This document shows positions 55,860 through 58,898 of a DNA stretch of 61,254 bases, one piece after another (the first letter of the stretch is position 1; each line of letters begins with the position of its first letter). Origin of the DNA: Vulcanimicrobiota bacterium. Its GTDB lineage: Bacteria; Vulcanimicrobiota; Vulcanimicrobiia; Vulcanimicrobiales; Vulcanimicrobiaceae. The notes under the pieces are model-generated. The model had not been told where the DNA came from, made no database searches, and worked only from the letters and a program-made list of their open reading frames with translations. The translations under genes were made by a program, and so were the position numbers. The DNA lies in the NCBI GenBank assembly GCA_013036105.1, contig JAAXCX010000013.1:1-61254 (forward strand), written 5' to 3'.

Positions 55860-55882
55860 GCGTGCATGAAACGCCCGCTCAC

Positions 55883-57316
55883 ATGTTAGACCGGCGCGAG
55901 TTTCTCAGGGGCGTCGCGGGCGCCGCCGCGCTAGGCGCGGCCGGAGTGGAGCTCCTTGCCGCGGCGCGCCGGCTGCCGTGGGAGGCGCTTGCGCGCCGGC
56001 TTTCGGGAAGCGTCGTGCTTCCCGGCGGTCGTGGATACGGTGAACTTGCGCTTCCGAATAATCTGCGGTATTCCGCGCTGCGCCCGGCGGGCATCGCGAT
56101 GTGCAAGAGCGCGCGAGATGTGAGCGCAGCGATTTTGTGGGCGCGCGAGAATGGCGTGCCGCTCGTAGCGCGTTCCGGTGGTCACTCATATGCGGGCTAT
56201 TCTACGACGAGCGGGTTGATGATCGACATGGTCGAGATGAACGGCATATCGCTGGACGAGAGTACGGGCGTCGCGACCGTCGCCGGCGGCGCCAGGAACG
56301 GTGATGTTTACAGTTATTTCAGTAACCGCAATGTCGCGATTACGCACGGCCGGTGCCCGACCGTGGGGATCGCAGGCTTAGCCCTGGGCGGCGGCATCGG
56401 CTTCAACATGCGTGAGCACGGTCTGACCTGCGATCACATGGTTGCCAGCGAGATCGTGCTGGCCGACGGATCGATTCAAACGCTTACCGGCGACGACGAT
56501 CTGTTGTGGGCGTGCCGCGGTGCAGGTGGCGGAAACTTCGGGATCAACACGTCGTTTGCGTTCCAAACGTTCGACGTTGGTTCGATTACGGTTTGCGATC
56601 TGACTTGGGACGAGCGGCCCGAACGCGTCTTCGCCAGTCTCGTTGAGACGCTCGATCGCGCTCCGCGGACGTTCGGTTCGAAAGTTTCCGCCAAAGCGCC
56701 GACCGGTTCTTCAGGGATACAGATTGAGTTGCTCGGTCAGTTCACCGGTACGCCGGCTGGGCTACGCGAACTGCTTGCCGGCGCATATGCGATCGCGCCA
56801 CCAAAGGGCGTCGTTACCATGGAGCGCTACTGGAAGGCGCAAAAAGTGCTCGCCGAGCCCGGAGTTCCAGCCTACTTCCAAGAGCGCTCGCGGTTTTTCA
56901 ATGAGGCGATCGATCATCGAGCGGTCGCGGTGATTTTCGAGTGGTTGCGGCGATGCCCGAAGACCGCAACATCGGCCGAGTTCAAAGTCTTTCAAACCGG
57001 CGGCCGCGTGAACGATAAGAAGCCAAGCGAGACGGCGTTCGTGCACCGGCAGAGCCGGTGGCTCGGATCGATCGACCTGTATTGGGAACGCGATACGCCG
57101 AACCACACGCTGCAGCACTACTTAGCGTGGCTGAGCGCGTTCTACGAAGCAATCGTTCCGATTGCCAAAGGCGGCGCGTACCAAAACTTCATCGATCCGT
57201 CGCTCACCGATTGGAAGCGCGCCTATCACGGATCGAATCTAAAAAAACTCGAAGCGATCAAGAAGCGCGTCGATCCGACCGGAGTGTTTACGTTCCGGGA
57301 AGCGATTCCAAGTTAA
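55883..57316 (+). CDS. Tat-exported FAD-linked oxidase, berberine-bridge-enzyme type
   Basis: A 477-residue PCMH-fold flavoprotein. The N-terminus LDRREFLRGVAGAAALGAAG is a twin-arginine signal. Residues 98-101 (SGGHSY with His101) and Cys158 in GRCPTVGIAGLALGGGIGFN match the two residues that hold FAD covalently in BBE-type oxidases. The C-terminal BBE segment is YQNFIDPSLTDWKRAYHGSN. Such enzymes oxidise sugars, alcohols or aromatic compounds with oxygen. The start could also be GTG 55862 (seven more residues). A minus-strand terminator follows at once. Confidence 0.92.
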   Translation: MLDRREFLRGVAGAAALGAAGVELLAAARRLPWEALARRLSGSVVLPGGRGYGELALPNNLRYSALRPAGIAMCKSARDVSAAILWARENGVPLVARSGGHSYAGYSTTSGLMIDMVEMNGISLDESTGVATVAGGARNGDVYSYFSNRNVAITHGRCPTVGIAGLALGGGIGFNMREHGLTCDHMVASEIVLADGSIQTLTGDDDLLWACRGAGGGNFGINTSFAFQTFDVGSITVCDLTWDERPERVFASLVETLDRAPRTFGSKVSAKAPTGSSGIQIELLGQFTGTPAGLRELLAGAYAIAPPKGVVTMERYWKAQKVLAEPGVPAYFQERSRFFNEAIDHRAVAVIFEWLRRCPKTATSAEFKVFQTGGRVNDKKPSETAFVHRQSRWLGSIDLYWERDTPNHTLQHYLAWLSAFYEAIVPIAKGGAYQNFIDPSLTDWKRAYHGSNLKKLEAIKKRVDPTGVFTFREAIPS

Positions 57317-57373
57317 ATAAAACGAGGCGCTCGGTGAGAGCGCCTCGTTGATGGTTGACAGCGGGACTGAGAC
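57316..57373 (-). ncRNA. Predicted short RNA, unit 2, antisense to the tRNA-like RNA
   Basis: Expected start near 57373 from the promoter at 57408-57380. The 5' part is complementary to 57456-57484 of the tRNA-like element (including a 13-bp perfect match over GCGGGACTGAGAC), with the inverted repeat at 57350-57379. The conserved block ACCATCAA and the terminator hairpin ACGAGGCGCTC/GAGCGCCTCGT with TTTTATTT end it. Length is about 58 nt. Confidence 0.6.
57321..57352 (-). terminator. Intrinsic terminator of unit 2
   Basis: Perfect stem of about 11 bp (ACGAGGCGCTC/GAGCGCCTCGT), 5-nt loop, then TTTTATTT on the minus strand. It also lies just after the plus-strand flavoenzyme gene and may serve it. 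Confidence 0.85.
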
Positions 57374-57379
57374 GACTCC

Positions 57380-57408
57380 ACTCTATCACACCGAAGCATC
57401 GGTCGCAA
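57380..57408 (-). promoter_or_regulatory. Promoter of short RNA unit 2
   Basis: Minus strand TTGCGA (57408-57403), 17-bp spacer, TAGAGT (57385-57380). The bases before the -10 (TCGGTGTGA) are identical to unit 3. Confidence 0.7.
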
Positions 57409-57423
57409 TTGACCTACTCCACT

Positions 57424-57494
57424 GGAGCGTGCCGGAATCGAACCGACTGCGGCGTGGAGTCTCAGTCCCGCCGTCGACACCATCGAAACGCCCC
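57424..57494 (-). ncRNA. tRNA-like RNA, unit 2
   Basis: The minus strand folds as a cloverleaf of 71 nt. It has a 7-bp acceptor stem GGGGCGT/ACGCTCC (extendable outward by up to 5 bp), one linker base, and a short D-like hairpin (TCGA/TCGA, 5-nt loop). A 24-nt anticodon-like hairpin follows (CGGCG/CGCCG plus GGA/TCC with a bulged A, 7-nt loop CTGAGAC). Two linker bases lead to a T-arm GTCGG-TTCGATT-CCGGC. A canonical D-loop is missing and no CCA is encoded. GTTTCGAYGG at the 5' side recalls tmRNA. The shared motif CGTCGTGAATG lies 10 nt upstream. Confidence 0.55.
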
Positions 57495-57540
57495 AGCGGA
57501 TTCGCATTCACGACGAAACGTGCATTTAGCAAGAGCGGGT

Positions 57541-57598
57541 AAAATAAAACGAGGCGTTCTTGCGAGCGCCTCGTTGACGGTGTGACGGGCTTGAGGGT
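57541..57598 (-). ncRNA. Predicted short RNA, unit 3, antisense to the tRNA-like RNA
   Basis: Expected start near 57598. Its 5' part (inverted repeat 57576-57603) is complementary to 57677-57704, with an 11-bp core CCCTCAAGCCC. The block reads ACCGTCAA instead of ACCATCAA, matching the change GATGGT to GACGGT in the tRNA-like partner. Ends in a hairpin with TTTTATTTT. Confidence 0.6.
57545..57576 (-). terminator. Intrinsic terminator of unit 3
   Basis: Minus-strand stem AACGAGGCG(CTC) with (GA)ACGCCTCGTT and a small loop, then TTTTATTTTAC. Nearly the same stem as in unit 2. Confidence 0.8.
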
Positions 57599-57604
57599 AC
57601 CTCG

Positions 57605-57633
57605 ACTCTATCACACCGATGCGTGTGGCTCAA
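57605..57633 (-). promoter_or_regulatory. Promoter of short RNA unit 3
   Basis: Minus strand TTGAGC (57633-57628), 17-bp spacer, TAGAGT (57610-57605), with TCGGTGTGA directly before the -10. Confidence 0.7.
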
Positions 57634-57645
57634 GGCCAACGTGCT

Positions 57646-57714
57646 GGAGGGTGCGGGAATCGAACCCGCAGCGGCAGAGCCCCTCAAGCCCGCCGTCGAC
57701 CGTCGAAACCCCCC
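57646..57714 (-). ncRNA. tRNA-like RNA, unit 3
   Basis: Same architecture as unit 2, 69 nt: acceptor GGGGGGT/ACCCTCC (extended by GCT/AGC), one base, D-like hairpin TCGA-CGG-TCGA, 24-nt anticodon-like hairpin (CGGCG/TGCCG and GGC/GCT, bulged C, 7-nt loop TTGAGGG), two bases, T-arm GCGGG-TTCGATT-CCCGC. Acceptor, T-stem and inner hairpin pairs differ from unit 2 yet still pair. Both loops read T-GAG in the anticodon position. It may be a tRNA-derived regulatory RNA or a mimic; it is not a normal tRNA. Confidence 0.55.
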
Positions 57715-57755
57715 AGCGCGCGTCATTCACGACGAGCGCGCTCGGGAGAAAGCCT

Positions 57756-58898
57756 CTAGGATGATGGCGAGGTGACGACAATCGCCGATTGCGCTGCGTC
57801 GGTCCAGGCGGCGTGGGCGATGATCGGATGAGTGAGGTATTCGAATGCGAGCTGCGCCTCTTCGCGCGTGCAGGCGCGCTGAGAGCCCGTCGCTGCGAGC
57901 GCTTCGTCCACTAACACCATAGCGGCATCGAGCGTCAGCAACGCGGCGTTGCTGACGCTCGATGTCCCGTTAGTACTTGCCGCGCCGTTCGTGGCTGCGC
58001 CGTTGGTGCTGATCGTGCGCCCCTCGGCTGGCGCGGCTTCGCCGCGCTGCTCGGGGTGGTTCGACAGGCTCACCATGACACTCTCATGGCCGTGTTGCTG
58101 AACCATGAGGGTTTGCAGATGCCAGCCGGTGGAGCGAATCAGGTTGGCGACCGTGAGGATGCGTTTGCGTTGGCCGTGCTTGCGTTCCCACAAGAGATCG
58201 GCCAGTGCGTCGGCGGCGTAGCCCGGTTCGAAAAGCGCGCGCAGTTCGTACGCGTTGGCGGCGATGGTGAGCGCGGTTTGCAGATCGGCGAGCGTCCAGG
58301 CGCTGACGCCGTGCGTGTGGAGTTCGGACGTCAGTTTGAGTTCCTCGGAGAACGCGGGGCCGACGATCGCGCAAGACTGCGCGTGGAAGGCGTCGCGGTA
58401 TTTGGCAGCTTCGAAGATGTCGGGGTCGGGGACGATGCTTTTGGCGGTCTTGCACTCGAGCATGGCGCGATAGCCGAGCGCGCCGAGTTGGGCGTCGGCG
58501 TAGCCGTCGGGCGCGCTGTCGCCGCCCAGGTGAACCGTCGCGAATCCCATGTGCGCTAACGCATCGCAGACGGCGATTTCAAAGGCGGCGGGGTCGGAGC
58601 CGGTGGCGGTTTTGGTCAGGCGATCGATGAGGCCTTGGGTTTGCACATCGGGCGGAGCGGCCGGCTTTTCGGGAAGCGCGGGCCAATCGTCGAGCGTTCG
58701 TTCACGCGGAAGTTGCGCTCTTCGTCTTGGAGGATGGCCGCAGTACTGCAGGCCCTTGCGGGGAAGCTGCTGCTCGCAATACCGGCAGTTTGCTAGCGCT
58801 TCCACGCGTCGAGCTTCGTCTATCGTACGCCGTTCCGCGCGCCCTAAGCGATATGGAACTTTCATGCGTCGAAGCTGCTTCGCGTATTCGTTCGACAC
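57756..58898 (-). CDS. PD-(D/E)XK nuclease-like protein with an N-terminal zinc-ribbon-like segment
   Basis: A 380-residue protein. Residues 38-55 carry CxxC and CGH (Cys38, Cys41, Cys53, His55), a possible zinc ribbon. Residues about 104-155 resemble the Mrr/restriction-endonuclease-like core: FEIAVCDALAHMGF, then GGDSAPDGYAD and AMLECKTAK, giving an Asp and the ExK pair Glu148/Lys150. The middle part is helical. Residues about 273-294 come from a family-B repeat read in frame, followed by Asn/Thr/Gly-rich low-complexity sequence. A DNA-binding or nuclease role is plausible but unproven. Its 3' end lies 42 bp from tRNA-like unit 3. Confidence 0.7.
   Translation of the reverse strand: MSNEYAKQLRRMKVPYRLGRAERRTIDEARRVEALANCRYCEQQLPRKGLQYCGHPPRRRAQLPRERTLDDWPALPEKPAAPPDVQTQGLIDRLTKTATGSDPAAFEIAVCDALAHMGFATVHLGGDSAPDGYADAQLGALGYRAMLECKTAKSIVPDPDIFEAAKYRDAFHAQSCAIVGPAFSEELKLTSELHTHGVSAWTLADLQTALTIAANAYELRALFEPGYAADALADLLWERKHGQRKRILTVANLIRSTGWHLQTLMVQQHGHESVMVSLSNHPEQRGEAAPAEGRTISTNGAATNGAASTNGTSSVSNAALLTLDAAMVLVDEALAATGSQRACTREEAQLAFEYLTHPIIAHAAWTDAAQSAIVVTSPSS
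58020..58080. repeat. Family-B repeat inside the PD-(D/E)XK-like gene
   Basis: Stem GCGCGGC-TTC-GCCGCGC, then GCTCGGGGTGGTTCGACAGG and CTCACCATGACA. On the minus strand it reads VMVSLSNHPEQRGEAAPAEG without a stop. Confidence 0.85.

Follow-up and report, generated by a model that had tools for sequence, protein, structure and literature searches.

Two tandem units of 220 bp in the window (the whole 61,254-nt stretch of contig JAAXCX010000013.1 that was analysed) belong to a family in which a tRNA-like RNA with full alanine acceptor identity is followed by a short RNA complementary to its 5' half, and the two partners change together from copy to copy. The best reading, held at about an even chance, is that the first RNA is a tRNA mimic that engages the alanine-tRNA machinery and is restrained by the second, the two functioning like a type VIII toxin-antitoxin pair. 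Comparative sequence analysis shows the structure, the alanine identity set, the covariation of sense and antisense, the antisense promoter, cognate specificity and the order in which units decay.

The host genome (2.34 Mb, 95% complete) comes from a phylum that goes by the name Candidatus Eremiobacterota in public records of relatives. Both units lie on the minus strand between a FAD oxidoreductase gene and an Mrr_cat-like ORF (Table 1), where the preliminary description of this DNA had placed two units of common layout; all the elements that it named are present, namely the shared motif, the cloverleaf-capable RNAs, TTGNGN-17-TAGAGT promoters, short-RNA starts in agreement with those proposed, and terminator hairpins with T tracts. 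The acceptor stems are as it described, and three further covarying pairs (GCU/AGC) extend them. No Rfam family matched the window units at its own cut-off. The upstream ORF contains a perfect 19-nt inverted repeat, CATCGAGCGTCAGCAACGC, with a 1-nt spacer (57926-57964), and a TGGTGAGCCTGTCGAACCA stretch upstream within the same ORF resembles a REP-like repeat (CCTTCGACAGGCTCAGG type) of relatives.

Table 1. Features of the two units and of their flanks in the window.
Feature	Position	Strand	Basis and remarks
Berberine-type FAD oxidoreductase gene	55862-57316	+	One flank of the units
ORF, weak Mrr_cat restriction-endonuclease match	57756-58898	-	18.1 bits vs Pfam cut-off 21; directly upstream of the units, same strand
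Unit 1 putative tRNA-like-RNA promoter	57724..57751	-	-35-like TTTCTC 57751-57746; conserved TCGTCGTGAATG 57735-57724
Unit 1 tRNA-like RNA	57642..57717	-	R1 match 82.3 bits; family covariation; 7-bp acceptor GGGGGGT/ACCCTCC with G3:U70 and A73 (G1 = 57714, A73 = 57645); 3-bp outer extension, short D-like arm, 24-nt anticodon-like arm, T arm
Unit 1 antisense promoter	57605..57633	-	TTGAGC-17-TAGAGT, extended -10 TG; sequence, family conservation
Unit 1 antisense RNA	57541..57598	-	Inverted repeat I19; family covariation; fold z=-3.7; start near 57598, predicted from the -10; ACCCTCAAGCCCG pairs with 57692-57681, ACCGTC with 57704-57699
Unit 1 terminator hairpin	57575-57548	-	Followed by T tract
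Unit 2 putative tRNA-like-RNA promoter	57505..57532	-	TTGCTA 57532-57527; TCGTCGTGAATG 57516-57505
Unit 2 tRNA-like RNA	57420..57497	-	R1 match 89.9 bits; family covariation; acceptor GGGGCGT/ACGCTCC with G3:U70 and A73 (G1 = 57494, A73 = 57423)
Unit 2 antisense promoter	57380..57408	-	TTGCGA-17-TAGAGT, extended -10 TG; sequence, family conservation
Unit 2 antisense RNA	57313..57373	-	Inverted repeat I3; fold z=-5.4; predicted start near 57373; GTCTCAGTCCCGCTGTCAACCATC pairs with 57484-57459
Unit 2 terminator hairpin	57349-57321	-	Followed by T tract

A blastn search that started from the unit 2 core found the element across many of the 99 genomes of the window's family. Around 60 loci were compared side by side, and covariance models R1 (49 units) and R2 (70 units) were built from the units. 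Searches with both models gave strong units, about 80 in all, from 46 of 149 Candidatus Eremiobacterota genomes, comprising 42 of the 99 genomes of the window's family and four in another family of the same class, with 1-4 units per carrier genome, sometimes in tandem at 220-700 bp. This recurrence with an unchanged layout places the arrangement far beyond chance. The model searches covered this phylum, and absence from other phyla is judged from a single exact-motif scan of 84,980 species, in which convincing units appeared only in Candidatus Eremiobacterota. Motif matches elsewhere (Nocardioides, Paenibacillus, Roseibium and others) had neither T arm nor antisense and are likely chance matches in coding sequence; the same lack marks two viral-contig matches as likely chance. 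The phage and plasmid record collections searched gave no match.

The tRNA-like RNA is 78 nt long and its arms stand in tRNA order (acceptor, D, anticodon, T): a 7-bp acceptor stem with three outer pairs, a D-like arm, an anticodon-like arm of 4 bp, a bulge, 3 bp and a 9-nt loop, and a 5-bp T arm. In 49 units, 97.3% of cells in the cloverleaf are paired. When distant members are included (70 units, 68 distinct), 22 of 26 pairs show compensatory changes, in all four helices, and 96.6% of cells are paired, against 37-47% in slid registers; none of 500 shuffles was as good. The covariance search of relatives that the preliminary description had called for, run with a shuffle control in place of R-scape, came out strongly in favour of its reading.

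Alanine identity in tRNAs is conferred by G3:U70 together with A73 and neighbouring G:C pairs. The mimic carries the full set (G1:C72, G2:C71, G3:U70, G4:C69 and A73), with G3:U70 in 67 of 70 units (the exceptions being one without the G, one truncated and one A:C) and A73 in 68 of 70, and the host genome's own tmRNA has the same GGGG...CUCC ends. Features of the tRNA elbow are also retained, namely GG in the D-like loop and TTCGATT in the T loop. CCA is not encoded. The outer GCU/AGC pairs also covary (GUU/AAC, GGU/ACC) and lie beside position 73, an unusual place for them. Conserved pairs here, one of which joins -1 to 73, would get in the way of a free CCA end; it is therefore doubtful that the mimic is charged, and it may act by binding and not as a substrate.

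The shared CGTCGTGAATG motif proved to be a variant of a box seen throughout the family, (C)GTGA or GGGA, which lies 14-15 nt before the tRNA-like RNA and occurs in 56 of 67 units, where shuffled sequences give 3.2. A TTG-like element (TTG/TTT) precedes the box in 54 units, at identical spacing in 45 of them. This TTG ... GCGTGA region is probably the promoter of the tRNA-like RNA and, having no consensus -10 hexamer, may be weak or used by another sigma factor. At the orthologous site 5' of sucC, two loci (L212 and L214) carry a small ORF in place of the tRNA-like RNA, behind a TTG...GTGATAGAAT or GTGATACAAT promoter; here a protein gene has seemingly captured the promoter region of the mimic.

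The antisense RNA is about 60 nt long and ends in a terminator hairpin. From its 5' end it carries the anti-loop, the complement of the 5' side of the anticodon-like stem, the anti-D-like arm and often the complement of the acceptor 5' strand (for example ACATCGAAACGC against GCGTTTCGATGGTGT). The antisense pairing proposed earlier stands, while the term "cis-encoded" was inexact: the antisense has its own gene further downstream, on the strand that also carries the tRNA-like RNA, and this gene repeats the 5' half in inverted form rather than being the complementary strand of the tRNA-like gene itself. The change from GACGGT/ACCGTC to GATGGT/ACCATC between the two units, offered as a sign of covarying pairing, is indeed seen, and antisense and loop covary across the family. 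When 13 nt of the loop arm were set against 13 nt of antisense in 41 units, with the offset picked per unit, 95.3% of cells were paired and 12 of 13 pairs were compensatory, giving a covariation score of 0.806 against 0.236 for shuffled and at most 0.130 for slid registers. Choosing the offset per unit helps somewhat, although swapped partners given equal freedom reached 8.9 of 13 pairs against 12.3 for own partners. The mean Watson-Crick run is 11.8 nt with the unit's own antisense and 5.5 nt with swapped partners; predicted binding is -13.7 kcal/mol for cognate against -1.7 kcal/mol for non-cognate pairs, the cognate outscoring 20 random non-cognates in 54 of 64 units. Within the window, own partners are predicted to bind at -17.4 (unit 2) and -9.5 kcal/mol (unit 1), and cross pairs at -1.9 and -3.7 kcal/mol. 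The 5' half of the cloverleaf is lost in the predicted minimum free energy duplexes.

Some units depart from this plan. A hybrid unit (L049, position 2713) joins a 5'-truncated tRNA-like RNA to an antisense that fits a different unit (CCACAAGACCGTC type). In two distant relatives (L191, 2117-2260; L203, 1600-1743) the tRNA-like RNA is followed by a hairpin whose loop repeats the anti-loop sequence (ACAGGTCTG, GACGGGTCCA), and a kissing contact in cis is possible there; such a hairpin was rejected as a family feature, as it beats shuffles in only 2 of 6 distant relatives.

In the proposed mechanism, the first gene would supply a tRNA mimic of tRNA size, with an elbow, alanine acceptor identity, a 3-bp outer extension and no usable anticodon, driven by the weak or special TTG ... 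GCGTGA promoter, and the second gene a short antisense made constantly from an ordinary sigma70 extended -10 promoter. The 5' end of the antisense, complementary to the 9-nt loop, would make contact first, and its body, complementary to the mimic's 5' half, would then open the anticodon-like and D-like arms and so disable the mimic. Should the antisense run short, free mimic would be expected to bind AlaRS first, perhaps EF-Tu or RNase P too, and to slow translation, with the antisense as antidote. Transcription of the two genes, opening in vivo, AlaRS binding and harm to the cell are all predicted steps of this scheme. As loop and antisense change together, modules in one genome would not cross-react. 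The preliminary description had likewise read the pair as a tRNA mimic and its antisense, a reading that gains support from cognate specificity and from the order of unit decay.

In two large groups the loci keep their synteny across genera, running from a glycosyltransferase/glyQS region to rlmN in one and from sucC to an acyl-CoA dehydrogenase gene in the other, and so are inherited vertically. Recurrent neighbours, named by eye from sequence (rlmN, glyQS and a UDG-like gene at one site, sucC and the acyl-CoA dehydrogenase at the other), vary between sites and are all housekeeping genes, so that no partner protein is apparent; nor was a recombinase noticed among them. With conserved chromosomal sites and absence from plasmids and phages, a role in plasmid-style addiction is unsupported. 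Meanwhile, units are often lost, and the loss is patchy even within genera. A survey of orthologous sites in genomes without an intact unit found the antisense gene complete with the tRNA-like part gone (G034, L219), the 3' half of the tRNA-like RNA lost with promoter and antisense kept (G031, L224/L104), an internal deletion with the antisense intact (G038, L217/L209) and a similar case of a damaged tRNA-like part beside an intact antisense (G002, L106); at one further site the terminator alone remains (G030, L216) and at another the unit is seemingly lost (G040, L211). The antisense was therefore kept after damage or loss of the tRNA-like part at at least four loci, an asymmetry that comes from few independent losses, and no full-length tRNA-like RNA without antisense occurs among about 67 distinct units, in searches that select for the tRNA-like part and should therefore have picked up such a case. 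Such asymmetry is expected if the tRNA-like RNA is harmful alone.

The main rival, unlikely yet deserving of weight, makes the same two RNAs a physiological regulator: the mimic would titrate AlaRS, RNase P or another tRNA-binding protein as a means of tuning, for instance in stress conditions by way of a sigma factor of its own, with the level of mimic set by the antisense. Vertical, syntenic inheritance beside housekeeping genes agrees with this, as do the mimic's distinct conserved promoter box and the retention of the alanine identity set. However, patchy loss within genera, the divergence of pairing sequences between orthologues and the lack of any mimic without antisense fit a harmful RNA better.

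It is improbable that each unit yields a single transcript with two exclusive folds, a cloverleaf when the 5' half pairs with the 3' half and a long hairpin when it pairs with the inverted copy downstream, serving as a switch or attenuator to which the internal promoter is incidental. The full strand of 204-206 nt does favour the long hairpin (z -4.6 and -7.7) and no terminator was noticed between the tRNA-like part and the antisense, but the internal promoter, a sigma70-type TTGNNN-17-TGNTANNNT lying about 30-60 nt downstream of the tRNA-like RNA on the same strand, is among the best conserved features of the family. In 94% of 72 units its score is above the 95th percentile for shuffles, 59 of the 72 have a spacing of 17, and in distant relatives the -10 becomes TATAAT with that 17-nt spacing retained. 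The antisense starts some 7 nt past the -10. Furthermore, the unit is closed by its own terminator and there is no downstream gene to control.

Two other accounts are both very improbable. In one, the effector is the short RNA, working in trans as an sRNA on mRNA targets, with the tRNA-like RNA as a sponge for it. Orphan antisense genes do occur (L219), but the seed differs between orthologous copies (54 versions of the anticodon-like loop in 70 units, around a conserved Y-G core), which makes shared mRNA targets unlikely, and the tRNA-like part is the constant one. In the other, an odd but true tRNA places alanine at other codons, a mistranslating tRNA held down by its antisense. Its advocates could point to conserved Y33, G34 and A37-like positions and to the tRNA calls that ARAGORN makes for 14 of 64 units, with anticodon-like GAU, GAC, GAG and GUC (in the window, unit 1 alone, as tRNA-Leu(gag)). 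Most units are nevertheless not recognised as tRNAs and, instead of a 7-nt anticodon loop, a readable anticodon and a standard variable region, have a 9-nt loop, a bulged stem, a short region before the T arm and the outer stem extension. A practical warning follows for annotation, where tRNA finders label some of these RNAs tRNA-Ile, -Val, -Leu, -Ser or -Asp. Least credible of all are remnants of a tRNA-derived mobile repeat (SINE-like or attachment-site debris), which several copies per genome, some in tandem, might suggest but which compensatory changes in two independent helix sets, syntenic inheritance, the lack of a phage or plasmid match and neighbours with no noticed recombinase argue against.

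An antisense-restrained mimic of this kind has relatives among known RNAs, although the claim that no described family has this layout was upheld by the search for a matching Rfam family or paper. Antisense control is familiar from hok/sok and from RNA I/RNA II of ColE1. These resemble the present units in contact through a single-stranded 5' end or loop, in cognate-specific coevolving pairing and in multiple compatible copies, but here the target is a tRNA-like RNA rather than an mRNA or primer, and the antisense gene is a downstream, same-strand inverted copy. A type I system requires a toxic peptide encoded in the target RNA, and no conserved peptide was found by inspection; compensatory changes in the 78-nt cloverleaf track RNA helices, not codons. 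Type VIII systems are made up of RNA partners, antitoxin included, and allow both genes to share a strand (PMC10767807). SdsR-RyeA and CreTA resemble the present pair in combining two RNAs, here from same-strand genes with pairing and coevolution seen by comparison and with neutralisation and harm predicted, but SdsR and RyeA are encoded opposite each other on one piece of DNA, CreA acts through Cascade on the creT promoter, and neither toxin RNA has been described as a tRNA mimic.

Among tRNA-like RNAs, tmRNA shares the G3:U70 alanine acceptor, the GGGG...CUCC stem, UUCGAYGG after the acceptor and the T arm. In contrast, the present RNA has about 78 nt and no mRNA-like domain, and the host genome has a separate ordinary tmRNA. 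The tmRNA model RF00023 had no match at gathering score and ARAGORN made no tmRNA call in the window; a permuted or split tmRNA was ruled out, as there is no coding part and the permuted model stayed below cut-off. Of the weak RF00023 matches of about 75-90 nt in relatives that were read, nearly all are ordinary tRNAs, and one tRNA-like match (L016, 2272-2383; GGTGGTGC...CATCTCCACCA) received no ARAGORN call. The long acceptor helix and 4-nt UGGU D-loop recall tRNA-Sec, but there is no long variable arm and the D stem is short (6 bp in tRNA-Sec); model RF01852 gave 26.2 and 22.7 bits against a cut-off of 47. The bacterial Y RNA YrlA is also a non-coding RNA with a tRNA-like domain (PMC7790460, citing Chen et al. 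2014), but in its Rfam alignment the T-like arm precedes the D-like arm, whereas the order here is normal; no antisense partner is described for YrlA, and model RF02553 scored 17.4 bits against a cut-off of 69. The mainly open-access literature searched contained no tRNA mimic with its own coevolving antisense, and so, as far as was found, the principle of antisense control is known and this combination is new.

Modules built of two RNAs, one of them the effector, are very rare, and we know of none that targets tRNA biology through a tRNA mimic. TADB 3.0 was built on two validated kinds of type VIII locus (PMC10767807), and if the toxin-antitoxin reading is true a stricter reader may file the present pair under that type. 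Tentatively, and somewhat short of an even chance, the family represents a new class of RNA-only module, in which an alanine-tRNA mimic would jam or divert the alanine-tRNA machinery and would be restrained by a dedicated antisense that arose when the mimic's 5' half was duplicated in inverted orientation; one phylum would contain many copies orthogonal to one another. If true, this may be a new route for RNA control of alanine charging. The approximately 80 natural, mutually specific sense/antisense pairs in these uncultured soil bacteria would offer a set for studying how orthogonal RNA-RNA recognition evolves.
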